From positions 1 to 50,022 of IMG/VR virus record IMGVR_UViG_3300037119_006434: DNA of 50,022 nt; one strand, written 5' to 3'. Shown here piece by piece: positions 3,880 through 50,022 of the stretch (positions are counted from its first letter, which is position 1; every line of letters starts with the position of its first letter). The position numbers and the translations under genes were made by a program. The notes under the pieces are model-generated. The model made no database searches, was not told the DNA's origin, and worked only from the letters and a program-made list of their open reading frames with translations. This DNA comes from a virus.

Positions 3880-4022
3880 ACATCCGCCGGGAAGATCACC
3901 TACATTGTTCCCCGGACAAATCTCGCGTGGGGGCGTTGGAAAGCCGAGTTAGACAGCAAACCAGCCTAGCCCCCTTGCGCTCGGCCGCCTGGCTGCTTAA
4001 CCGCGCCGCTCGGCCGGGATGA
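3876..4022 (+). CDS. Possible small protein ending in the first operator repeat
   Basis: A 48-residue frame that begins with a GTG overlapping the preceding stop (GTGA) and is served by the duplicated GGGAGG site. It reads VNIRREDHLHC at the start and has an arginine-rich tail. Its TGA lies inside the first of the palindromic repeats. Size and lack of homology leave real doubt. The evidence is the ribosome site and the coupling arrangement seen throughout this arm. Confidence 0.4.
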   Translation: MNIRREDHLHCSPDKSRVGALESRVRQQTSLAPLRSAAWLLNRAARPG

Positions 4023-4163
4023 GTGAGCGGTCATTCAAGGTTGAGGCATCGGGGGATTGAGTGAGCGGTCATTCAGGAGCCGGCGGCTGAGTGGATGCTC
4101 ATTCACCAACGACTGAGTGAGTGCTCATTCGCCGTGTTGAGGCGGTGAGTGAGCGTTCATTCA
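4020..4163. promoter_or_regulatory. Array of five palindromic operator-like repeats
   Basis: Five near-identical 18-mers lie at 4020, 4058, 4088, 4114 and 4146 (each start +17). The first two are TGAGTGAGCGGTCATTCA; the others differ at one to four positions. Each is an imperfect palindrome, TGAGTGA-N4-TCATTCA, which strongly resembles operators of TetR-family repressors. Spacing is 26-38 bases, so most copies do not repeat on a fixed helical face. There is no gene above 48 codons from 3880 to 4465. It may be a repressor or antirepression site cluster, a partition-like site or an iteron-type origin. No TetR-type protein is encoded in the window, so a host regulator may bind it. Confidence 0.8.
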
Positions 4164-4222: not shown

Positions 4223-4279
4223 CTGTACTAATGGACAGGCCCGGCCTGTACTAAAGAAGGACCCTCAAGACTGTACGAA
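4223..4279. repeat. Three CTGTACKAA direct repeats
   Basis: CTGTACTAA occurs at 4223-4231 and 4246-4254 and CTGTACGAA at 4271-4279, spaced 23 and 25 bases apart, just downstream of the palindromic array. A short hairpin (ACAGGC-ccg-GCCTGT) overlaps the second copy. Regular spacing near two helical turns suggests an iteron-type protein site. The rest of 4164-4439 shows no credible gene. Confidence 0.45.
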
Positions 4280-4465: not shown

Positions 4466-4849
4466 ATGGCTAGGAAGCACCCGCCCGAGATTTTCTCCGG
4501 GCATCGGTACTGCCGAATCTGTAAGACCGTGATGTCCGGCCGCGAGGGTGGCATGGGTAAGGGGCCGTTTAACGTCCCAGTGCTGTGCTGCCCGGACTGT
4601 CTCAGCGGCTTCCGCCCGGAAGAAACCGTGGTGGTTAGGCCAAGATCCGGCCGGAATCACTCCGAGACCCATAAGATGTCTCATCGGCCGCTGGACCCCG
4701 CCGCCTTGGCGGTTGGCATCCGGGGCAAGAGGTTCGACCCCCGGCCACAGTTGACGGCCGCGACAGCGGTTCGCATCAGCCGCGAGACACAGACTATGTC
4801 CGCGCTACTACCCAACTATCGGCCGCCGAGTAGGTTTCGCGTCGCGTAG
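4466..4849 (+). CDS. Small protein with CxxC zinc ribbon
   Basis: A 127-residue protein with RYCRIC (Cys-x2-Cys) near residue 20 and LCCPDC about 24 residues later, a four-cysteine zinc ribbon. The rest is basic and probably disordered. The ATG at 4466 was chosen over the in-frame ATG at 4430 because GAGAGAG lies just ahead of it. It is the first clear gene after the operator region. No specific function is known. Confidence 0.6.
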   Translation: MARKHPPEIFSGHRYCRICKTVMSGREGGMGKGPFNVPVLCCPDCLSGFRPEETVVVRPRSGRNHSETHKMSHRPLDPAALAVGIRGKRFDPRPQLTAATAVRISRETQTMSALLPNYRPPSRFRVA

Positions 4850-4945
4850 GCCCGCCGGTCGGGAGCATAATCCTGGGCAGTGTGATCGAGTTGCGTTCGG
4901 GCCTCAGGGGTTGAGTCCTCTCACGCCTTAGAGTGGAGAGTGCTC

Positions 4946-5113
4946 GTGGTTTCTGACTGGCTCCTGGCCCAGCTACTGCTGTGGGGGAAGTCCCACAATG
5001 CCGAACCGCGACCGATGTACATCGGCAGGCTGATTGAGCGGCCGTCGGATAGGTGGCTGCTCTCCCAGCGGCGACCGGTGCAGGTCGTCATCCGCCGAGA
5101 GATTTCGGCGTGA
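4946..5113 (+). CDS. Small basic hypothetical protein
   Basis: A 55-residue frame starting at GTG 4946 behind GGAGAG. It reads VVSDWLLAQLLLWGKS at the start, then a basic region with PMYIGRLIERPSD. The stop overlaps the next gene's GTG (GTGA). Codon use matches its neighbours. No family is recognised. Confidence 0.5.
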   Translation: MVSDWLLAQLLLWGKSHNAEPRPMYIGRLIERPSDRWLLSQRRPVQVVIRREISA

Positions 5114-5319
5114 CCTACGTTCGGCCCAATTTCCCGACCAAAAAGGCGCTCCGAGAGGCGATCGCCGACGGCAGGTCTCGGGTCGAGGTGTTCGAGCCGG
5201 GCCTTGGGACCGTGCCGTTTGACGGCGTGGTGTTTCTTGAGGGACCGTGGGCTCCGAAGGCCCATAGCTGGTATGCCCAGGGCCGGGTGGTCCGGGGCCG
5301 ACTGGTGAGCGTTAAGTAG
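5110..5319 (+). CDS. Small conserved phage protein (TKKALREAI / HSWYAQ type)
   Basis: A 69-residue protein: TYVRPNFPTKKALREAIADG, then EVFEPGLG, VFLEGPWAPKAHSWYA. This arrangement (a lysine-rich TKK-L-EA helix, then E-PG, then a strand with EGP-P-PH-WYA) recurs in small early proteins of many phages, with no function known to me. The GTG at 5110 is chosen because it overlaps the upstream stop and begins at the conserved TYV. An ATG at 5053 would overlap the previous gene heavily. Confidence 0.7.
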   Translation: MTYVRPNFPTKKALREAIADGRSRVEVFEPGLGTVPFDGVVFLEGPWAPKAHSWYAQGRVVRGRLVSVK

Positions 5320-5327
5320 TTTCCGCC

Positions 5328-5346
5328 GGGCTCAACCGCTGAGCCC
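5328..5346 (+). promoter_or_regulatory. Intergenic hairpin
   Basis: GGGCTCA-accgc-TGAGCCC gives a perfect 7-bp stem with a 5-base loop 9 bases after the preceding stop codon. There is no T tract, so it is more likely an RNA stability or attenuation element than a classical terminator. Confidence 0.45.
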
Positions 5347-5364
5347 CGGACGCAACCGCGTGCC

Positions 5365-5390
5365 GGGCATTTTGCTTAGGAGCAATGCCC
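5365..5390 (+). promoter_or_regulatory. Hairpin that buries the Shine-Dalgarno
   Basis: GGGCATT (5365-5371) pairs with AATGCCC (5384-5390), and GCT (5374-5376) with AGC (5381-5383). The AGGAGC ribosome site (5378-5383) of the gene starting at 5395 falls in the loop and upper stem, so folding would restrict ribosome access. Confidence 0.5.
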
Positions 5391-5394
5391 TACC

Positions 5395-6105
5395 ATGAGC
5401 GAGCAGACTAATCCACAGACAGACCCGGCCCAGCCGCCGGCCGAGGGTGAGTCCTCGGTTGCCGCACCGCCGGACACCACGGCCACGGTGCCAGAGGTCC
5501 CGGCGGTTCCTGAGCCCAGCTTGCTGGAGAAGATCCAGGCCGAGTTGGCGAAGGGGACGGGCCTGGACCAGCTGGCGACCCTCCAGGCTCTGCTGACCAC
5601 CGAGTTGAATCAGCGCCGGGCGGAGGAGCGGGAGAAGGCCGAGACCGCGCGACGGGCCAAGAGGGCGGAGCTTGTCGGTCAGATCACTTCGGTGGTGGAC
5701 CTCGGCAGCCTGCTGAGTCCGTTCCTGGCCGCGGCCAAGGAGTGTGGTCTCCTGGGCCTGGATATCAGCTTCAGCGGCGACACGCTCGGGATCACCCCAC
5801 GGGCTCAGGCCCTGGCGGTGCCAAAGGCTGCCGCGGCTTCGGCCGATGGGAAGCCCAAGGCGGAGGCGGCCGGGGTGAAGGCTCCCGCCGGACAGTCCGC
5901 GCAGCCGGGCGACGAGCAGACTTGGATGTCGGTGACATCCGAGGCTGACCGCGACGCTGACAAGGCGGCGATTGAGGCGGAGGTGGTGGCGGCGGAGGCT
6001 CGGGGCCGGACCGGCCCATCCGTTCGCAACTCGATCACATGGCGGGTCAGGCATGATCGGATTCAGTATGCCCGGACGGGCAGCCGGGTCGGTCACCTGA
6101 AGTAG
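5395..6105 (+). CDS. Hypothetical Pro/Ala-rich protein with coiled-coil centre
   Basis: A 236-residue protein. Residues 1-40 are Pro/Ala/Thr-rich and acidic. Residues about 42-110 are helical with heptad-like leucines and a charged RRAEEREKAETARRAKRAE stretch. Then comes a compact part with GLDISFSGDTLGI and a second low-complexity Ala/Lys region. The C-terminus is basic (WRVRHDRIQYARTG). Disordered arms around a coiled coil suggest an oligomeric binding or scaffolding protein, but no family is recognised. Its last six codons lie in a 16-bp direct repeat. Confidence 0.6.
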   Translation: MSEQTNPQTDPAQPPAEGESSVAAPPDTTATVPEVPAVPEPSLLEKIQAELAKGTGLDQLATLQALLTTELNQRRAEEREKAETARRAKRAELVGQITSVVDLGSLLSPFLAAAKECGLLGLDISFSGDTLGITPRAQALAVPKAAAASADGKPKAEAAGVKAPAGQSAQPGDEQTWMSVTSEADRDADKAAIEAEVVAAEARGRTGPSVRNSITWRVRHDRIQYARTGSRVGHLK

Positions 6106-6156
6106 GCCCCAGGCCGGGTCTCTGGGTAATGCCAGGGGCCCGGTCACCTGAAGTAG
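6090..6156. repeat. 16-bp direct repeat pair around a hairpin
   Basis: CGGTCACCTGAAGTAG is found at 6090-6105 (end of the 236-residue gene, including its stop) and again at 6141-6156. Between them lies a 10-bp stem with two G-U pairs, GGGTCTCTGG (6116-6125) with CCAGGGGCCC (6132-6141) and a 6-base loop. It looks like a partial duplication of the gene's 3' end and may act as a 3' RNA structure. Confidence 0.5.
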
Positions 6157-6180
6157 TCCGAGTCGCCTCGTGACCGTGGC

Positions 6181-6232
6181 GGCTGAGTTTGGGTCCCCCC
6201 TGACTCAGCCTCCAGGGCCCGGGACTACCCGG
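6181..6232 (+). promoter_or_regulatory. Start-associated double-hairpin element, copy 1
   Basis: An 8-bp inverted repeat, GGCTGAGT (6181-6188) with ACTCAGCC (6203-6210), is followed by CCGGG-ACTA-CCCGG (6219-6232). The second hairpin ends three bases before the GAGAGG ribosome site of the gene at 6245. The element recurs at 6434-6484 and 8661-8706 with different first stems but the same second hairpin. Confidence 0.7.
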
Positions 6233-6244
6233 TAGAGAGGTGTG

Positions 6245-6433
6245 ATGGACAGAGATCAGGTTCGTGGTATGGTCAAGGAGATGGTCCGGCTTGCCAGGGC
6301 GAAGGACTATGACTCCTACTCTACCCTTGAGCGAGCCCTGGATGAGCTCCTGTTCGAGGAGAAGTCTGACAATGCATGGGTCCGGGGATTTATCTCCGGG
6401 GCGCTGGTGATGACGGAGTCAGTGGTGTCGTGA
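6245..6433 (+). CDS. Small acidic helical protein
   Basis: A 62-residue protein (MDRDQVRGMVKEMVRLA start, C-terminal ISGALVMTESVV). It appears wholly alpha-helical and acidic. The ATG at 6245 is preferred; a GTG three bases earlier is equally possible. Expression is probably governed by the double-hairpin element just upstream. No function is assigned. Confidence 0.55.
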   Translation: MDRDQVRGMVKEMVRLARAKDYDSYSTLERALDELLFEEKSDNAWVRGFISGALVMTESVVS

Positions 6434-6484
6434 CCTCAGGGTGTGAGTGTCCCCGCTCATAGCCTGAGGCCCGGGACTACCCGG
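6434..6484 (+). promoter_or_regulatory. Start-associated double-hairpin element, copy 2
   Basis: The first stem pairs CCTCAGG (6434-6440) with CCTGAGG (6463-6469) and continues inward with TGAG/CTCA. The second hairpin is CCGGG-ACTA-CCCGG at 6471-6484, identical to copy 1. It fills the gap between the stop at 6433 and the ribosome site GGAGAG before the gene at 6500. Confidence 0.7.
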
Positions 6485-6499
6485 CTGTTGGAGAGTGAC

Positions 6500-6679
6500 A
6501 TGTCCGAGCAGATCAAGACCCTGACCCCGGTGGCCGCCCTGAAGGGGTACTTCGGGCTGAAGCCGGGACAGACCTCGGCGGAGTTCCTCGGCGAGCTGCG
6601 GGAGCTGTCGGCCAAGGACCGCGACTGGTTGGCGAACGAGGCGGCGCACAACCTGGGCGCCAAGATCAAGGAGGGGTAG
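6500..6679 (+). CDS. Small hypothetical protein
   Basis: A 59-residue protein starting MSEQIKTLTPVAALKGYFG. The middle, KPGQTSAEFLGELRELS, and the following AKDRDWLANEAAHNLG form a helical pair. Small phage proteins of the form L-P-G-tloeF--ElK-Ls--er-el---ia resemble this, without known function. The ATG at 6500 with GGAGAG 5 bases ahead is chosen over the ATG at 6443, which would include the regulatory hairpins. Confidence 0.6.
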   Translation: MSEQIKTLTPVAALKGYFGLKPGQTSAEFLGELRELSAKDRDWLANEAAHNLGAKIKEG

Positions 6680-6681
6680 GC

Positions 6682-6891
6682 ATGGCTGAGTTCCAGCCCG
6701 GCGATAGGGTGTGCATCCTCGGGCACACCCCGTACTTCAACACCAAATTCGGGGCCTGGGCGTTCTCGTATGAGGACCAGACCGCGGAATACGTCCAGCA
6801 GTGGTCGGCGAAGATGGGCCTGAGTTTGGTCCGCCGACCATCGGGCACCCTGCTGAAGGTGCCTGACCGGGCCCTGATCCCGGACCTTTAG
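6682..6891 (+). CDS. Small hypothetical protein
   Basis: A 69-residue protein starting MAEFQPGDRVCILGHTPY, a beta-rich start like a small SH3-like barrel (F-GDRV), with a tail SGTLLKVPDRALIPDL. It begins two bases after the previous stop behind AAGGAGGGG and is clearly in the same transcript. No family is assigned. Confidence 0.55.
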   Translation: MAEFQPGDRVCILGHTPYFNTKFGAWAFSYEDQTAEYVQQWSAKMGLSLVRRPSGTLLKVPDRALIPDL

Positions 6892-6909
6892 TTCCCCTGC
6901 CCGTCCCGG

Positions 6910-6938
6910 CCTGGTAGTGGCTGATAACCGCTGCCAGG
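6910..6938 (+). promoter_or_regulatory. Strong 11-bp hairpin after a gene
   Basis: CCTGGTAGTGG (6910-6920) pairs fully with CCGCTGCCAGG (6928-6938), including two G-U pairs, around the 7-base loop ctgataa. It starts 18 bases after the stop at 6891, which suits a transcription pause or terminator. No T tract follows. It opens a 270-base gene-free interval. Confidence 0.55.
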
Positions 6939-6977
6939 CTCCGGCCCGTTGAGCATCCGGGCCTAGCCTCAACCAGG

Positions 6978-7022
6978 TTCAGCACTAGGTGCAGGGGTCG
7001 CAACCCTGGCCGGGGTGCTGAG
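6978..7022 (+). promoter_or_regulatory. Branched hairpin in gene-free interval
   Basis: TTCAGCAC (6978-6985) pairs with GTGCTGAG (7015-7022), 8 bp with one G-U pair. It encloses an inner stem CAGGG (6992-6996) with CCCTG (7004-7008). Together with the 6910 hairpin it makes 6892-7090 a structured, non-coding stretch upstream of a promoter, and a small RNA or terminator is possible. Confidence 0.45.
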
Positions 7023-7091
7023 TCCAAGCCGAGCCGAAGGGTTAATAGCCCGTGGATGGTGTAGCCTAGGTTAAAGCTAGGACCCGGGCAC

Positions 7092-7120
7092 TTGACACGG
7101 TGGTGTCCGGCGGCTATACT
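7092..7120 (+). promoter_or_regulatory. Early-arm promoter (TTGACA-17-TATACT)
   Basis: TTGACA at 7092-7097, a 17-bp spacer and TATACT at 7115-7120, with the shared CACGG-type context around the -35 box. It reads into the zinc-finger gene at 7162. Confidence 0.85.
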
Positions 7121-7161
7121 ATAGTACAGGCCGAGTGGGCCAGAGAGAGGTGCCCGAGGAT

Positions 7162-7533
7162 ATGAACCGCTGTCCAAGCTGTGGGGAGGACCTAGAGGAC
7201 TGGGATGATGAGGCCGCTCTCAACCACACGGACTACTGTGAAGGCGGGGTGGAGGAACCACCCCCGCCGAAGTACCACCTCTGCCCTCAGTGCCAGGGTC
7301 ACGGGGTCACGGTGCATGCCGCGGTGTCGGTGTGGACTGAGTCCGACAGAGAGGAGGACCCCGAGGGGTTCGAGGATATGCTGGCCGGTCACTACGATGT
7401 GACTTGTCCAAGGTGCCGGGGCCTGAGGGTGGTAGATACCGCCAGGGAGGAGGAGTTTACCGAGGAGGAGGATGACCGCAGAACCCGGTTGATGGAGTCC
7501 GGGATATACCCAGGGTCCGCTGACTATTACTAG
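7162..7533 (+). CDS. Acidic zinc-finger protein
   Basis: A 123-residue protein with CPSCG at the N-terminus and two later pairs, LCPQCQGHG and CPRCRG, of the DnaJ-type CxxCxG zinc finger. The remainder is very acidic. It is the first gene after a strong promoter. The start is uncertain: ATG 7162 is followed by the CPSC motif, but a GTG at 7150 directly behind AGAGAGAG is also possible. It probably mediates protein or RNA contacts; the role is unknown. Confidence 0.65.
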   Translation: MNRCPSCGEDLEDWDDEAALNHTDYCEGGVEEPPPPKYHLCPQCQGHGVTVHAAVSVWTESDREEDPEGFEDMLAGHYDVTCPRCRGLRVVDTAREEEFTEEEDDRRTRLMESGIYPGSADYY

Positions 7534-7544
7534 GAGGATGGAGA

Positions 7545-7796
7545 GTGTCCAAGTATTACCCGTTTACCTCTGACTCGGTGCTGGCGGAGCCCGAAGGCGA
7601 GGTGCTGTTCGAGGTCACTGTTACATCGGTGATTGGTAAGGTCAGGGCCGGTGGTCATCTCAACCCGCGGGTGGCCGCGTTCATCCTGATCGCCGAGGCC
7701 GGGATCACCGGGGAGTACAGTTTCCCGGCGGAGGACGGCGGCGTCGAGGTGGTCACCGTGAAGCAGTTTGGCCCGGATGAGCAGAGGCTCCCTTAG
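7545..7796 (+). CDS. Small beta-rich hypothetical protein
   Basis: An 83-residue protein, GTG start behind GGATGGAGA. It reads SKYYPFTSDSVLAEPEGEVLFEVTVTSVIG and appears beta-rich. No motif is recognised. It is spaced 11 bases from the preceding gene and 3 from the next, in one transcript. Confidence 0.5.
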   Translation: MSKYYPFTSDSVLAEPEGEVLFEVTVTSVIGKVRAGGHLNPRVAAFILIAEAGITGEYSFPAEDGGVEVVTVKQFGPDEQRLP

Positions 7797-7799
7797 GCC

Positions 7800-8102
7800 G
7801 TGGACCAATCTACCGGCCTGGTCTATCTGATTCACTTTGACCGGCGGTATCGGCATGCCGGGCATTACCTGGGGTTTGTCCGCCGACCTCAGGGCCTGGC
7901 CCGGAGACTCAGAAACCATCGGGCCGCCCGGCTGGAGACGTGGGTCAGGCACCGCCAGAGCAAGCTGATGGCGGCTGTGGGGAGCGCCGGGATCACCTGG
8001 CGGCTGGCCCGGGTGTGGCCGGGGAAGTCAATAGGGGATGAGCGGCGGATGCACCGGGGCGGCGGCCACCGTCGCCGGTGCCCAATCTGTTTAGGAGGTT
8101 GA
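7800..8102 (+). CDS. GIY-YIG nuclease-like protein
   Basis: A 100-residue basic protein with GLVYLIHFDRRY and HYLGFV at the N-terminus (the two strand motifs of GIY-YIG domains), then LARRLRNHR (catalytic-type arginine helix), ITWRLARVWPG, ERRMHRGG and a C-terminal RRCPIC. This matches compact GIY-YIG-like proteins found in actinobacteria and their phages. GIY-YIG enzymes nick DNA through a Tyr/Arg/Glu/metal centre. Whether it acts as a homing-type, repair or host-degrading nuclease is unknown. GTG start; the stop touches the next gene's ribosome site. Confidence 0.65.
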   Translation: MDQSTGLVYLIHFDRRYRHAGHYLGFVRRPQGLARRLRNHRAARLETWVRHRQSKLMAAVGSAGITWRLARVWPGKSIGDERRMHRGGGHRRRCPICLGG

Positions 8103-8104
8103 GG

Positions 8105-8311
8105 TTGTACCCAGCTAAGGTCCGGGCGCTTGGCCATCTGGAGGCTACCCTGGCGGAGCTGATTGATTGGTTCCAGGAGAAGTCCGACAGCCTGGGGGAG
8201 AGTGAGTCCGCCCAGGAGAAAGCCGACGTCATCTCGGATATCATCACAGACCTGGACGCGGCAAAGGATTCGGTGTCCACGGCCATGGCAACCCTCGAGG
8301 AGCTAAAATGA
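8105..8311 (+). CDS. Small acidic coiled-coil protein
   Basis: A 68-residue protein of acidic helices (LEATLAELIDWFQEKSDS, then DVISDIITDLDAAKDSV). The TTG at 8105 is chosen because a perfect AGGAGG lies 6 bases ahead and it avoids the 25-base overlap that the upstream ATG would cause. No function is assigned. Confidence 0.55.
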   Translation: MYPAKVRALGHLEATLAELIDWFQEKSDSLGESESAQEKADVISDIITDLDAAKDSVSTAMATLEELK

Positions 8312-8329
8312 GGCCGGGTAAGTAACCAG

Positions 8330-8653
8330 GTGCTGAAGCTAGGACGACTAAGAGCCTGGGTGGAGGCCAAACGGTCCTTCCCCTGGGTTATCTCCACCGG
8401 CGTGTACATTGAGCCTAGGAGGTTACAGGTGCCGGATATGGGATGGTCCCGGTACATCGCCGAGCAGGAGGCAATGGTCGAGTTTGAGCAGTGGATGAAC
8501 CAATGTGCAGTGTTCTTGAGGTACCCCTGGGACCTCTCCCCTGAGATGATCGACGATGCTCAGTGGGAACTGATGTTCAAGGAGAACCTGAGTCCTCTAA
8601 CTGCCGTTGAGGCCGTGCTCAAGGATCTCCTGATTGCCCACCTAGACCGTTAG
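8330..8653 (+). CDS. Hypothetical protein
   Basis: A 107-residue mixed alpha/beta protein, GTG start behind AACCAG (a weak site). It contains FPWVISTGVYIEPRRLQV, then helices with many aromatic residues (EFEQWMNQCAVFLRYPWDL). No recognised family. It is the last gene before the third double-hairpin element. Confidence 0.5.
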   Translation: MLKLGRLRAWVEAKRSFPWVISTGVYIEPRRLQVPDMGWSRYIAEQEAMVEFEQWMNQCAVFLRYPWDLSPEMIDDAQWELMFKENLSPLTAVEAVLKDLLIAHLDR

Positions 8654-8660
8654 GCTCCGA

Positions 8661-8706
8661 CCCGAGCCCCCGACCACTCGGGGGTTTGGGCCCGGGACTA
8701 ACCCGG
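8661..8706 (+). promoter_or_regulatory. Start-associated double-hairpin element, copy 3
   Basis: The first stem is 13 bp: CCCGAGCCCCCGA (8661-8673) with TCGGGGGTTTGGG (8678-8690) around ccac. The second hairpin, CCGGG-ACTAA-CCCGG (8692-8706), repeats the CCGGG-ACTA-CCCGG of copies 1 and 2. AGAGAGAGG follows, then the ATG at 8730. Confidence 0.7.
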
Positions 8707-8729
8707 ACACCAGAGAGAGGTCACAACCA

Positions 8730-8987
8730 ATGGTCGGATACAACGCGGCGACAGAGGGGACCGGGTTCTGGGACTCGCAGACTATCGAGACGGATATCGC
8801 CTCGGGGGATTATGGAAATGTGGTGAGGGTTAGCCGGGTGACTAAGGGTCGCCGGGGGTTCGTGGACATCCGGCAGTGGTTTGTCCATCGAGAGACTGGG
8901 GTGCTGACTCCCGGCAAGGGTATCGCCCTGCCGGTGGATATCGCGGAATCCGTCCTCTACGCCGGGCTGGCGGCCGCGAGCCGGTAA
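8730..8987 (+). CDS. PC4-like transcriptional coactivator / ssDNA-binding protein
   Basis: An 85-residue protein matching the compact PC4 (p15) fold pattern: a strand with NVVRVSRVTKGRRGFVDIRQWFV, then a turn with TGVLTPGKGIALPVD and a C-terminal helix. PC4-like proteins bind single-stranded DNA as dimers and can affect transcription or repair. Its start is behind the third double-hairpin element, which suggests regulated expression. The family call rests on the RVS-----G-FVDIRQW and PGKGIALP pattern. Confidence 0.65.
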   Translation: MVGYNAATEGTGFWDSQTIETDIASGDYGNVVRVSRVTKGRRGFVDIRQWFVHRETGVLTPGKGIALPVDIAESVLYAGLAAASR

Positions 8988-9019
8988 TCGCCGGCACCAC
9001 CCACAGCTGGAGAGTGGCG

Positions 9020-9316
9020 ATGGGATCAATCAATGGAGTGTGTCGTCCCCGAGCAACCTACAGAGTGATGATACCCGCGATATCCCGTCTTTATCCTTGG
9101 GGGCCGTTGGACTACCCGGATATCGACTCGGCCCTGGATGACGCGCAGTTCCTGAGCATGGAGTCGGACTGGCCCTGGGCGGATGTGATCCTGTGGTGGG
9201 ACTTCGCCGGCCAGGTCATCTGCCTGGGGTTGGTACCTAGGTCTGACCCATGCGTGGGCCTGGCCCCCGTGATGAGGTTCCGCGACGGCGTAGGAGTAGA
9301 AGGACCCGTGCAGTGA
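9020..9316 (+). CDS. Hypothetical protein
   Basis: A 98-residue protein, tryptophan- and aspartate-rich in the middle (DSALDDAQFLSMESDWPWADVI). The ATG at 9020 has GGAGAG 5 bases ahead; the longer open frame from 8876 would overlap the PC4-like gene. An ATCGCC/GGCGAT pairing (8987-8992 with 9016-9021) could cover the start codon. The gene is coupled to the next through GTGA. No family is recognised. Confidence 0.5.
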   Translation: MGSINGVCRPRATYRVMIPAISRLYPWGPLDYPDIDSALDDAQFLSMESDWPWADVILWWDFAGQVICLGLVPRSDPCVGLAPVMRFRDGVGVEGPVQ

Positions 9317-9567
9317 GCATGACCAACAGCGAGTACATGGCGAGGGTTCACCGTGCCCTGACGAACAAGTCACTCCTGTGTGACTGGTGTGCCAGGTCCG
9401 CAGAGTGTACCCATTGCCGGACCGGCGTCTACCACATGCATGAAAAATGTTATGCGGAGGCGTTCCAGAGTGGTTACTTCTCCCGGCTGTCGCCTACCCG
9501 ACAACAGTTCCCGGTTGGTTGTTCTACCGGGCTGGTGCATTTTGTCCTCGGCTACTCTAACATCTAG
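9313..9567 (+). CDS. Small Cys/His-rich putative zinc protein
   Basis: An 84-residue protein with CDWCARSAECTHC followed by YHMHEKCY, enough Cys/His for one or two zinc sites. The GTG at 9313 overlaps the upstream stop and has AAGGA at suitable distance; the ATG at 9319 is an alternative. No function is assigned. Confidence 0.55.
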   Translation: MSMTNSEYMARVHRALTNKSLLCDWCARSAECTHCRTGVYHMHEKCYAEAFQSGYFSRLSPTRQQFPVGCSTGLVHFVLGYSNI

Positions 9568-20853: not shown

Positions 20854-20903
20854 CCATTATCTACCGAGAAGCCAAGGAGATAATCACCCGGAGGATAGAG
20901 TGA
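20850..20903 (+). CDS. Possible 17-residue peptide
   Basis: GTG 20850 to TGA 20903 encodes VTIIYREAKEIITRRIE. It overlaps the methyltransferase stop and the next gene's GTG by four bases each (GTGA twice), so it fills the gap as a perfect coupling link. It contains AAGGAG and GGAGG, so it may only be a ribosome site with incidental coding. Confidence 0.4.
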   Translation: MTIIYREAKEIITRRIE

Positions 20904-20935
20904 CCGAGCAGCACCAGCCGCCCCCACTCAACCTG
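20900..20935. repeat. 36-bp start-anchored direct repeat, copy 1
   Basis: The first 36 bases of the gene starting here (GTG plus 11 codons, MTEQHQPPPLNL) are identical to 21585-21620. The match starts exactly at GTG and ends after the 12th codon. Confidence 0.9.
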
Positions 20936-21211: not shown

Positions 21212-21588
21212 GCGACACGCGCGCCGACCTCATCGCCGACCTGCGCGCGCAGCGGGCGGCGGTGGCGGCGCTGCGGGCCGAGCGGGACCGGAGACTGCGC
21301 CTCCTGCGGGCCACGCTCGCCTACGTGGATGCCACCCAGGACCGCGCACCGCTCGGTGAGCGCAAGCGGCTCTGGGACGACCTACGGACGGCCCGTGCTG
21401 CGCTGCACGACCCACCGAGCACGCCGGCCGGTCCGTTGGCCGAGGGGCACCTCTACCCAACCGACCTGACCGATGGGGAAGGTGCCCCGGCGGCGGGCCT
21501 GCCGAAAGCCCAGGCAGCGGCTGCTCAACGCTACGCCCTGACCTGGGAGATCGAGGATCAAGCTGCGGACCAGGAGGTGACGCGGTGA
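21208..21588 (+). CDS. Hypothetical coiled-coil protein in GC-rich cassette
   Basis: A 126-residue protein: a coiled-coil N-terminus rich in Arg/Ala/Leu (ADLIADLRAQRAAVAALRAE), a loop, and a C-terminal acidic part. It resembles the preceding protein in its coiled-coil style (AAVAALRAERD vs ATVAALTAERD), so the two may derive from one another. GTG start; the stop overlaps the next GTG. Confidence 0.55.
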   Translation: MSDTRADLIADLRAQRAAVAALRAERDRRLRLLRATLAYVDATQDRAPLGERKRLWDDLRTARAALHDPPSTPAGPLAEGHLYPTDLTDGEGAPAAGLPKAQAAAAQRYALTWEIEDQAADQEVTR

Positions 21589-21620
21589 CCGAGCAGCACC
21601 AGCCGCCCCCACTCAACCTG
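21585..21620. repeat. 36-bp start-anchored direct repeat, copy 2
   Basis: Second exact copy, again beginning at the GTG start codon of a gene (the 41-residue membrane protein). Confidence 0.9.
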
Positions 21621-21710
21621 ATAGTCATGTACCCGTGGTGGTTCATCCTCGCCGCCGGCCTGGCCATTCTCACCCTAGTAGTGGTGGTAGCAGACCTCAG
21701 GAGAAGATAA
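21585..21710 (+). CDS. 41-residue membrane protein
   Basis: The N-terminus MTEQHQPPPLNL is shared with the gene at 20900; then one transmembrane helix (IVMYPWWFILAAGLAILTLV and following valines) and a basic tail ADLRRR. AGGAGG is 7-8 bases ahead of the GTG. The stop forms TAATG with the next gene. Too short for gene finders, but well supported by ribosome site and coupling. Confidence 0.6.
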   Translation: MTEQHQPPPLNLIVMYPWWFILAAGLAILTLVVVVADLRRR

Positions 21711-33007: not shown

Positions 33008-34777
33008 CTAGCCGACCCGGACCATGCCGAACTCAGGGGAGGTGTTACCAATGGCGGTGACGGCCAATGCAAGGCCGGCATCTTGGTACGCCTCAATCTC
33101 CACGTAGTCGTTAACCGCCAGATCATAGACTGTTGAAATCGTGATGTCTATTGGAGCAATGCCGGATGCTGTACGACGATCAATTGCTATATAGATGGAG
33201 CCGTTGAGCTTGATACCGAGATACCTGACCCCGGTCGCATTGGCTTGGAATTCCGCGGTAGCAAAGATGTAATATTTGCCGGCGGTACGGCAGGTTAGCC
33301 GGGAATTATTAGTGACGGTGTCATGAATAGTATCGGTGTCAAATCTCTCGTTGTTAAATGCAAGGATAAACGGTGTGGCTGTGGTTAGGGATTGGCCACC
33401 ATTATGGTATACCCGGGCCTCGGGCACCGTGTAGGTATTCATCTGCCCGACAACTCGGACCTTGCCGACCCCGGGGTCGGTAGAATCCCCGATGGAGACA
33501 CCGCCAGATAAATGCAACCTTATGGTACCACCGCCGGTCACCGAGATATCAATCGGTAGGACGGTGCCGCCGCCAACCGCCGCGGAGTTGATCTGCATGG
33601 CGACCCCGGCCTGGGCAATGACGCGGATGCGGGAGGAGATTGTTGGGTCGGCGGTCGTGTAGAGATCCAACTCACTGATGCCTGACGTGCCGTTTGGTAG
33701 GACAGTCAGGGCTGTCGCCGCGTTGGCGACTGAGGTTTGGAAGGCAAACCTATTGAGGAGTGTAGCTGTGGAGAAGTCAGCGATGATTCTCTGGGTCAGG
33801 TTCGAGAAGATGATGTTGCCGTTTTGGAGGTTGAGGTTGATACCCGTGAGGAAGAGGGTGTTGCTGTCTAGCAGCATCTTCTGCGCCGGGGTCCATGGTT
33901 GGTTGGGGCCGGGGAGTGAGGCGGCCGGGTACCACCCGAAGGTCCCGTTACCCAGCAGGGCCATGAGACCCATGCCGGAGGTGATGACGTTCCGCCAGGT
34001 AGTCCCGTCGTAATAGGCGTTCTGGGCTATGTAGGTGGCGCCGGAGTTGTCAACCGCAATAGCCCCTCGGCTGTTGTTGAGGTCAACAACTGTCCACACG
34101 GCCGGCCACTCGGTTCGGGGGTTCACCTTCACGCCGATGTTACCGATGGAGGTTAGTCCCCCGGTGATAGAGGCACCGCCGGCCTGGATGCTGAGGCCGC
34201 CGGATTGGATCGTCGCCCCGCCAGCCTGGATAATCAGGCCGCCGCCTTGGACCGTCAATGTGGAGCCGGTGTTAACCGCCGAGTCCAACTGCACGGTGCC
34301 AGAGTCAACCCAAAGGGCGTAGTTGTTGGTGGCGCCGGTTGGCGCCGCGGGGATGTACACCGAGGCCGCGGAGGTGGTCGAGGCCCCGGCATCGACAATG
34401 GTCGGGGGCGAGACCCTGAGGGTCCCCACGATCGCGTGGATACCGCTGCCAGCCTCGGTGATCGTCCCGCCATAGGATACCAAGAAGCTATCCGAGCCAA
34501 TGGTTGGGGCTGTGGCCAGGGTGTTGGCGGTGATAGTGCCGGAGAAGGTAGGGTTAGTGACTGTCACCCCGCTGATGCTGGTGGTCCAGATAGGGTCCGT
34601 GCCGTTGGACCCCAGAACCGTGCCGGCGGCCCCAACCCCCAGGCCGGCGATGTTGGTACCATTATGATACAGGAGATCGCCGCGAACCCCGCCAACCAGC
34701 GTGTGGGAGTTGATGCTCTCCCACTCAGACTGGGACAGATCAATCCCCACGCTGGCGTGGGCTAGTTCCTTAGCCAC
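33008..34777 (-). CDS. Tail fibre with C1q-like C-terminal domain
   Basis: 589 residues. The N-terminus (to about 60) is a typical fibre attachment part with WESINSHTLVGGVRGDLLYH. A central beta-helical or collagen-like repeat follows (GGLIIQAGGATIQSGGLSIQ and similar). The C-terminal about 135 residues form a C1q/TNF-like jelly roll: SLTTATPFILAFNNERFDTD, TAGKYYIFATAEFQ, RYLGIKLNGSIYI, VNDYVEIEAYQDAG. Such tips bind receptors as trimers. Confidence 0.75.
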   Translation of the reverse strand: MAKELAHASVGIDLSQSEWESINSHTLVGGVRGDLLYHNGTNIAGLGVGAAGTVLGSNGTDPIWTTSISGVTVTNPTFSGTITANTLATAPTIGSDSFLVSYGGTITEAGSGIHAIVGTLRVSPPTIVDAGASTTSAASVYIPAAPTGATNNYALWVDSGTVQLDSAVNTGSTLTVQGGGLIIQAGGATIQSGGLSIQAGGASITGGLTSIGNIGVKVNPRTEWPAVWTVVDLNNSRGAIAVDNSGATYIAQNAYYDGTTWRNVITSGMGLMALLGNGTFGWYPAASLPGPNQPWTPAQKMLLDSNTLFLTGINLNLQNGNIIFSNLTQRIIADFSTATLLNRFAFQTSVANAATALTVLPNGTSGISELDLYTTADPTISSRIRVIAQAGVAMQINSAAVGGGTVLPIDISVTGGGTIRLHLSGGVSIGDSTDPGVGKVRVVGQMNTYTVPEARVYHNGGQSLTTATPFILAFNNERFDTDTIHDTVTNNSRLTCRTAGKYYIFATAEFQANATGVRYLGIKLNGSIYIAIDRRTASGIAPIDITISTVYDLAVNDYVEIEAYQDAGLALAVTAIGNTSPEFGMVRVG

Positions 34778-34786
34778 GGCGGACTC

Positions 34787-34951
34787 CTATCCCTGGATTG
34801 CGAACCCGAAGGTCTTCCAGCCCAGGAGGGCCAGGAGCACCCAGACCAAGAGGCTGCCGCCGAGTTGGAGCCTGGTGGCCGGGGTATAGGACCACCAGGC
34901 CAGCAGCAACCAGACAAACATGATCAACCAGAAGATCAGTCCTATTGGCAT
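34787..34951 (-). CDS. 54-residue membrane protein
   Basis: Two hydrophobic helices, MPIGLIFWLIMFVWLLLAWW and GGSLLVWVLLALLGWKTFGF, joined by SYTPATRLQL. A small two-span protein inside the late operon may be a second holin candidate. It is packed between the fibre gene and the next gene with 2-9 base gaps. Confidence 0.6.
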   Translation of the reverse strand: MPIGLIFWLIMFVWLLLAWWSYTPATRLQLGGSLLVWVLLALLGWKTFGFAIQG

Positions 34952-35716: not shown

Positions 35717-35826
35717 TAGTAGCCGCCACGGCTGGCGGGCGGGGCCGGGGTTCGGGGAGCTGACCGCGGGGCAGACCCCTTACGGCTCTTGGGCTTGCTC
35801 TTCGGCTTGGCCTTCACCTTGGCCAC
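35716..35826 (-). CDS. 36-residue lysine-rich protein
   Basis: VAKVKAKPKSKPKSRKGSAP followed by a Pro/Arg/Ser tail ending RGGY. A GTG with AGGAGG 6 bases ahead, although it overlaps the preceding gene by 47 bases. The basic composition fits a DNA- or RNA-coating peptide in the head. Confidence 0.45.
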   Translation of the reverse strand: MAKVKAKPKSKPKSRKGSAPRSAPRTPAPPASRGGY

Positions 35827-36001
35827 GGGCGGCCTCCTGAGGATGAAGATCCTCGAACGAACTGGTAATCAGTTGCCGGCGGGCCTGGCGGCGGAGAGCT
35901 AGGAACTGACCCATGCCGATGAACCCCTGAGGGGCGACTACCTGTCGCAACGCCTCACTCCTCTCAGAGGGGTCCACCGGCTGGACTGATTTTCCTGCCA
36001 T
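35780..36001 (-). CDS. Hypothetical protein
   Basis: A 73-residue protein, MAGKSVQPVDPSERSEALRQ at the start, then helical with FIGMGQFLALRRQARRQL and a Gln/Glu-rich C-terminus. AAGGAG lies 7 bases before the ATG. It follows a 134-base gap (36002-36135) that holds GC-rich partial hairpins and no gene. Confidence 0.5.
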   Translation of the reverse strand: MAGKSVQPVDPSERSEALRQVVAPQGFIGMGQFLALRRQARRQLITSSFEDLHPQEAARGQGEGQAEEQAQEP

Positions 36002-36135
36002 GGTATACTCCTTAGCCGGGGACCCCCGGCGGGTGAAGGCAGAGGAGCCTGGACGAGACTCCCCTCACCTGGCCCACCGAGGGCCCGGGCGGGTTCCACA
36101 GGCTGCCCCAGGCCCTAGGAGCCGCCGCTTGGGTT

Positions 36136-48618: not shown

Positions 48619-50022
48619 TTACCATTTCTCGTTCCAGCCGCCAACCCCGGCGAACCCGGTACCGGCGCCGACCAGGCTTCGGGAGACGATGCCAATCGCC
48701 GAGGACATGTAGAGGTCGGAGAGGCCGATGTGGATGTAGCCCTCGCGGCTGGTGCCTTCTGGGTATCTCACGCCGCGGATTTGGCTGATTATGCGGGAGT
48801 CGTGGCACTCTAAGGCTGGTAAATGCTTGCTGACTTCTTGGACCATGAAGGGCTTGGTTCGGGGGGTGGTGAGCCAGCCGTAGTCGGTGCTGATACGCTC
48901 GGTGAAGGGGTCTCTTCGGTTGGAAAGCCGCGGATATTTGTGGACGTTCCTCAACTCACTGATGACTGCTAACCCGTGGCTGTTGGCCTCAGGGACTAAG
49001 GTCGCGGTATTGTAGTACCGGGCGAGTTTGGCGGCTTTGGTGGCGGTGAACTCGGTGTCCCAGAAACCTACACCTGTGGCGACGTGGATGCAGTGGGTGA
49101 CTTCGGGCTCCTCGGCCGGGATATATCGCCACACGGTTATCGCGGACTCGGTCTGCCGGCCTTGACCTGGGTCAACTGCCACTACGTAGGCGAAGTCGGG
49201 GTCGGGGGGCTCCCACACCTCGCAGTTCTCGAACCCAAGGGGGGCGGGGTAGCACAGCCGGGACATGTTGTCGAGGGTCTTGGAATCATGGACCATGTCG
49301 CCGGCGGCTAGGAAGCAGGAGACGTCATCCTCGGGGAATTCCTGGCCGAAGAGGAGTCGGGTGGTGCCGTCTCGCCGGAGGGCCTCAAGTTCCGCGGTCT
49401 TGGCCCGGCGCCATCGGAGCTGGTTGTGGTCTAGTCCCCGGCGGACTAAGACCTCTTCTTCGCTGTCGAGGTTGGTTAGCTCGGGGGTGCGGTCTCTGGG
49501 GAGAGCCAGGGGGGAGTTGATGGGTAGGCGGTATTCGGGGTGAAGGTACCAGGGGTAGAAGTGGTGCTGCCAGATGCTGCTACCTGTCTTGGCTGCGGTA
49601 TACAGCTCGTTGAAGGCGTTTTCCTCGCCGTTAGGGGTTGACCCGACGACCATACGGCCCCAGGCTGGTACACGTTGGAGGCTGGGGACCATGATGCGGT
49701 CGGGATCGGACCAGAAGGCGTATTCGTCGCAGAGGAAGTTGTGGATCGGCTCTCCCCGGCCGAATACGTGGGCGCGGGCGGAGCCAATATATAGTACACT
49801 GTTGAGTTCTGGGAAGAACTTCTCATTGGCGGAGCGGTGGCTCATTACTGGTTTGAACTCCGCCGGCAGGTGGTCGTAGAAGAATTGGGCTTTGGAGAGG
49901 AGGCGCTGGGTGATGAACTCCTCGTGGGCGACGATCACGGAGGTGGTCCCCGGGGTGCAGATGGTATCGGCGAAGAACAGGGCGATGACGATTGTGGAGA
50001 AGCCGACCTGGCTGGGCTTTTC
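48619..50022 (-). CDS. terL: Terminase large subunit, main part (N-terminus at the left end)
   Basis: Open to the right edge and joined through the terminal repeat to 1-306, giving 526 residues. Numbered on the joined protein: Walker B NFLCDEYAFW (Asp158, Glu159), coupling motif MVVGSTPNG (about 182-190), and an RNase H-like nuclease with VVAVDPGQG (Asp343), LVPEANSHG (Glu404) and LSDLYMSSAIG (Asp495). The apparent start at 49938 is an internal valine codon, not the real start. Portal follows 59 bases downstream. Confidence 0.93.
   Translation of the reverse strand, partial: EKPSQVGFSTIVIALFFADTICTPGTTSVIVAHEEFITQRLLSKAQFFYDHLPAEFKPVMSHRSANEKFFPELNSVLYIGSARAHVFGRGEPIHNFLCDEYAFWSDPDRIMVPSLQRVPAWGRMVVGSTPNGEENAFNELYTAAKTGSSIWQHHFYPWYLHPEYRLPINSPLALPRDRTPELTNLDSEEEVLVRRGLDHNQLRWRRAKTAELEALRRDGTTRLLFGQEFPEDDVSCFLAAGDMVHDSKTLDNMSRLCYPAPLGFENCEVWEPPDPDFAYVVAVDPGQGRQTESAITVWRYIPAEEPEVTHCIHVATGVGFWDTEFTATKAAKLARYYNTATLVPEANSHGLAVISELRNVHKYPRLSNRRDPFTERISTDYGWLTTPRTKPFMVQEVSKHLPALECHDSRIISQIRGVRYPEGTSREGYIHIGLSDLYMSSAIGIVSRSLVGAGTGFAGVGGWNEKW
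49894..50019. repeat. Terminal direct repeat, right copy
   Basis: Identical to 1-126. See the left copy; the final three bases of the window fall outside the match and would change one TerL codon (Leu60 to Glu), so they are probably an edge error. Confidence 0.9.

Follow-up and report, generated by a model that had tools for sequence, protein, structure and literature searches.

Three small genes in the early region of an uncultivated phage are each preceded by the same short hairpin, with a strong stem-loop adjoining it upstream and a GAGAG-type ribosome site following it. The questions raised by this locus are whether these leaders form a selected element, whether such an element would act as RNA or as DNA, and how it relates to the start-associated sequences (SAS) of other phages. 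The window, i.e. the whole stretch of DNA that was analysed, is IMG/VR record IMGVR_UViG_3300037119_006434 (50022 bases, 61% G+C). A terminal repeat of 126 bases is present (1-126 is identical to 49894-50019), and its junction is bridged by an independent contig of 4.6 kb whose sequence is that of the window, so the genome is very probably closed, at about 49.9 kb.

Early and replication genes occupy the + strand from about 4466, whereas the - strand encodes the lysis functions and the late genes (terminase, capsid, tape measure). The best matches of the endolysin are to phages of Cutibacterium and Propionibacterium, which suggests an actinobacterial host. Structural and replication proteins have relatives in IMG/VR contigs (28-50% identity, mostly of lower G+C), and no nucleotide-level counterpart of the 10 kb around the elements was found in known phages. 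Further repeats were seen in the window. Where the late (-) and early (+) operons diverge there are five 18-bp near-palindromic repeats of the type TGAGTGA-GCGG-TCATTCA (4020-4163), which are candidate operators or replication-origin repeats, and three closely spaced copies of CTGTAC(T/G)AA lie at about 4225-4279, upstream of the first early gene. Identical 36-nt stretches, both starting with GTG, are found at 20900-20935 and 21585-21620, the first being a likely gene start.

The three leaders and their genes are made up as follows; the ribosome-site-like motifs were assigned from sequence.

6174-6217, + strand: variable stem-loop A, 17 pairs, loop TCCC, -29.9 kcal/mol, z -4.58
6218-6232, + strand: constant element CCCGGGACTACCCGG, copy A, a 15-mer forming a 5-bp hairpin with loop ACTA
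6235-6240, + strand: ribosome-site-like GAGAGG
6245-6433, + strand: gene after copy A, 62 aa, codon-position composition gene-like
6434-6469, + strand: variable stem-loop B, 15 pairs including 2 G-U, loop TCCC, -25.0 kcal/mol, z -6.86
6470-6484, + strand: constant element CCCGGGACTACCCGG, copy B, the exact 15-mer
6490-6495, + strand: ribosome-site-like GGAGAG
6500-6679, + strand: gene after copy B, 59 aa, codon-position composition gene-like
8661-8690, + strand: variable stem-loop C, 13 pairs including 2 G-U, loop CCAC, -25.0 kcal/mol, z -5.13
8691-8706, + strand: constant element CCCGGGACTAACCCGG, copy C, its loop longer by one A
8713-8720, + strand: ribosome-site-like GAGAGAGG
8730-8987, + strand: gene after copy C, 85 aa, PC4-like (ssDNA-binding fold), codon-position composition gene-like

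The window holds exactly three copies of the constant element, CCCGGGACTA(A)CCCGG, all of them on the + strand, and 100 shuffles gave none (0 expected). From the end of each copy to the ATG at 6245, 6500 and 8730 the distance is 12, 15 and 23 nt, respectively, and a GAGAG-type site sits 2-6 nt 3' of each. An earlier note, made from the sequence alone, had described repeated double hairpins and GAGAG-type ribosome sites before these three genes, and both observations hold, the abutting stems having z-scores of -4.6 to -6.9. A search of the window against Rfam 15 gave no match at the gathering score. The possibility that GGACTACC represents a partial match to a conserved stretch of 16S rRNA was dropped, as copy C breaks the match. 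For the 62-aa product of 6245, neither a PHROG match nor an accepted Pfam match was found, and the product of 8730 just misses the Pfam cut-off of 25 for PF02229 (24.3 bits, E 2.1e-5).

In a genome of 61% G+C, where a CCGGG-N(3-6)-CCCGG stem is found at 12 places in the window, the leaders might be chance hairpins next to a functionless duplicated 15-mer. However, every constant copy is adjoined on its 5' side by a strong stem-loop with zero spacer, and in all three the first C of the constant element is unpaired, leaving a one-base junction between stem and hairpin. Equally strong stems ending at a chosen base were found at 0, 1 and 1 per 1500 random positions for stems A, B and C, respectively, and an abutting stem of -25.0 was reached at 3 of 611 CCCGG sites. 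When two adjacent hairpins before starts were ranked blind to the motif, using the 64 listed gene starts and 250 random positions, the three elements took ranks 1-3 among the 64 starts, scoring -32.7 to -37.7 against -27.3 for the best random position. Together, the shuffles, the random-position stems and the blind ranking leave chance as a very unlikely explanation. That the structure is selected is well supported by these statistics from one genome.

The earlier note had seen in these leaders pairing that was kept while the bases changed, a sign of selected RNA or DNA structure. This is so between the three copies in this genome, and the within-genome statistics bear out selection, but neither amounts to phylogenetic covariation: the constant stem is invariant across the three copies and yields none, stems A, B and C are too divergent to be aligned as one site and give no shared consensus, and no relative with the region was found. 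The one further contig from this phage, the 4.6-kb one at the junction of the terminal repeats, covers a different part of the genome. Relatives were gathered using the DNA polymerase, major capsid protein and terminase, and the longer records were examined in full; the early genes of 4466-9567, the motif and the double hairpin were all absent from them. No relatives of genes 6500 and 8730 were found. In IMG/VR, the 15-mer was found in 104 stretches, as a single copy in each, and the layout was absent from those inspected; of 21 viral stretches with the 15-mer plus ribosome site, none had an abutting stem. By sequence match alone, flanks aside, the 15-mer plus ribosome site also turned up in stretches of genomes of unrelated taxa, at least 120 in number. 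The repeats seen before gene starts in the relatives are coding, ribosome-site or promoter repeats. One relative's contig has promoter-like TTGACA...TGTGGTATAAT sites repeated before several genes.

The main rival to a start-associated element is that the variable stems serve the genes upstream, as transcription terminators or 3'-end stabilisers, so that only the constant hairpin and ribosome site are start-associated and the abutment arises from short gaps. Stem B opens at the very next base after a stop codon, the corresponding distance for stem C is 7 nt, and other strong stems (6106-6141 and 6903-6945) likewise trail stop codons. Strong stems also abut two of the eight SAS tested in phage AnnaSerena, described below. 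At 6245, though, the gap to the upstream gene is 139 nt and the abutting stem is still present; since the separate stem at 6106-6141 already trails the upstream stop codon, the abutting stem seems to be a property of the start element. No U-tract was found after stems A, B or C, and none of the three is among the terminator-like sites, so the stems do not have the form of intrinsic terminators. Nor does a role at upstream 3' ends require exact abutment in three of three cases, and we regard it as unlikely, if less so than the remaining alternatives. The strong stem at 6106-6141 is itself flanked by a direct repeat, GGTCACCTGAAGTAG (6089-6157), with one copy ending gene 5395-6105 and the other 52 nt further along.

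Whether the leaders would act as RNA or as DNA can be approached through the pairing itself. On the sense strand, stems A, B and C contain 1, 2 and 2 G-U pairs (five in total) and no A-C mismatches, the antisense counterpart of G-U pairs. This favours RNA, though the numbers are small (a one-sided chance of 1 in 32 for five pairs). The sense strand also folds more stably than the antisense (A, -29.9 vs -27.2; B, -25.0 vs -16.5; C, -25.0 vs -18.1). The alternative is that the leaders are DNA operators or promoters, with a phage regulator binding the CCGGG-N4-CCCGG half-sites, as has been proposed for the inverted repeats termed ESAS in cluster K, which in later work include putative SigA promoters (PMC11373665). 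Such a regulator would suit the inverted-repeat form, the conservation of the half-sites and the restriction of the elements to the early region. However, the one-base insertion in the loop of copy C shifts the half-site spacing for a DNA-binding dimer and would be tolerable in an RNA loop, and the variable stems have no common sequence and pair with a bias to the sense strand. No promoter-like -35/-10 pair, SigA-like or otherwise, was found in the three leaders, although strong TTGACA-17-TATA(A/C)T promoters are present elsewhere in the phage, at 7092 and 12318. An operator is improbable, and the case that the elements act as RNA is good, though not proven.

The earlier note had also likened the leaders to the SAS of mycobacteriophage cluster K. 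The likeness holds for the layout, in which the starts of non-structural genes have a constant short repeat just before them and, immediately 5' of that repeat, an inverted repeat, but not for most of the cluster K features that could be tested. The cluster K SAS is a 13-bp repeat, GGGATAGGAGCCC, that includes the Shine-Dalgarno core and is present in 11-19 copies per genome (PMC3203893, PMC12699233, PMC11373665), typically 3-9 bp from the start codon (PMC11373665). In contrast, the 15-mer hairpin lies outside the ribosome site, is further from the ATG of the early-operon genes (12, 15 and 23 nt), and has three copies in a genome that is very probably closed. The ESAS of cluster K are inverted repeats of 17 bp whose half-sites follow a common consensus, and their description found little to support hairpins at the RNA level (PMC3203893); here, the stems are unrelated in sequence but well paired, whereas the cluster K repeats share half-sites, generally without RNA pairing. 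Allowing up to two mismatches, GGGATAGGAGCCC matched before starts four times (3.85 expected), and at none of the three elements. In the cluster K phage Pixie, the best upstream stem never lay at a gap of 0-1 to the SAS. A single sequence one mismatch from the cluster K SAS, GGGATAGGAGTCC at 34781-34793 (- strand), lies 3 nt before gene 33008-34777 and may be due to chance.

A closer parallel in layout is found in the cluster EF Microbacterium phages, such as AnnaSerena. According to PMC7302621, these have a constant start-associated 13-mer, GGGAAAGGACCCC, at the ribosome site and an ESAS that is a weak upstream motif centred on GTAGAG. In our folding of AnnaSerena, two of eight SAS tested (at 21667 and 34172) were directly abutted by strong stems (-25.5 and -21.6 kcal/mol, gap 0-1), of which the consulted passages of PMC7302621 make no mention. 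A variable abutting stem is not general in cluster EF, whereas all three copies have one here. GGGAAAGGACCCC matched before starts in the window twice (4.27 expected) and at none of the elements. The layout is therefore partly common to cluster EF, and the element works somewhat like a start-associated one, but, lacking the consensus, the shared half-sites and the SigA promoter, it is not a member of the SAS/ESAS family of cluster K or cluster EF. Clusters EG and O also have short inverted repeats (PMC7302621, PMC4351075); those of EG are constant and lie 14-22 bp upstream of starts, a similar position, those of O are of constant sequence and not start-linked, and neither has a second variable stem.

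The possible extent of the element within this genome was also considered. The earlier note listed looser versions at 4466 and 5395, and these could not be upheld: the best double hairpin at 4466 scores -6.4, 5395 is outside the best 14 of the 64 starts in the ranking, and the element layout is absent from both. The leader of 5395 (5320-5394) has strong hairpins of another kind, with the ribosome site TAGGAG in the loop region of the last (z -3.2), and is SAS-like in shape. A candidate for a divergent fourth copy lies in the opposite orientation:

36015-36075, - strand: possible fourth, divergent element, a stem-loop (36031-36075) abutting GCCGGGGGTCCCCGGC (36015-36030)

It has the CCGGG/CCCGG stem of the three copies with loop GGTC and sits 13 nt before a 73-aa ORF (35780-36001, - strand), whose start at 36001 was the one other high scorer (-34.0) in a broader, permissive ORF list. 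The best predicted fold of the whole merges both hairpins.

The early messages of T7-type phages contain intercistronic stems that are processed by RNase III and for which pairing matters and sequence does not. The variable stems resemble these in being intercistronic, in an early operon and defined by pairing only, and would be putative cleavage sites. T7 is not known to have a constant second hairpin of this kind.

The reading we prefer, while giving it slightly less than an even chance, is that of a cis-acting two-part RNA leader placed between the cistrons of a polycistronic early mRNA. It is favoured because the repeats are exact and start-associated, the composite layout is uniform, the elements rank as the top three in the blind search and the differing stems keep their pairing; because of the G-U pairs without A-C mismatches, the sense-strand bias and the loop insertion in copy C; and because the leaders have no promoter-like site and the stems no U-tract. 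Against it, there are three copies, in one uncultivated genome. The three genes would be carried on one polycistronic early message. The variable stem would need pairing alone and may be a double-strand processing site or a nuclease barrier separating the message upstream of it from the one downstream. With its ACTA loop and its place before the ribosome site both fixed, the constant hairpin would be read by sequence, the putative reader being a phage or host RNA-binding factor or the ribosome, and would set stability and translation for the three small early proteins, of which one is PC4-like. No support was found for a role of the hairpins in keeping the ribosome site open (mean unpaired 0.47, 0.26 and 0.70 with the start of the coding sequence included).

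T4 gp32 represses translation of its own message, and an autoregulatory loop may be imagined here, in which the PC4-like product of 8730 binds the common hairpin and represses translation of the three genes. One of the three does encode such a product, if just below the Pfam cut-off, and translational control would fit with a fixed hairpin that precedes several genes. PC4-like proteins are, however, known for binding single-stranded DNA and not such a hairpin, and we consider this putative binding very improbable.

A bolder proposal, and a rather doubtful one, is that these leaders form a class of their own among the start-associated RNA elements of phages: a modular leader whose stem, free in sequence and always fused via a fixed one-base junction to a fixed ACTA hairpin, would define a three-gene post-transcriptional regulon with a phage RNA-binding reader. 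From the predicted structures, the leader probably tunes expression at the messenger-RNA level, and the leaders are small and suited to reporter tests. Actinobacterial phages have been known to carry start-associated sequences since 2011, and a mechanism for them is still lacking. The recurrence of their layout here, with a different sequence and real predicted pairing, suggests that start-adjacent RNA structure is what is selected.
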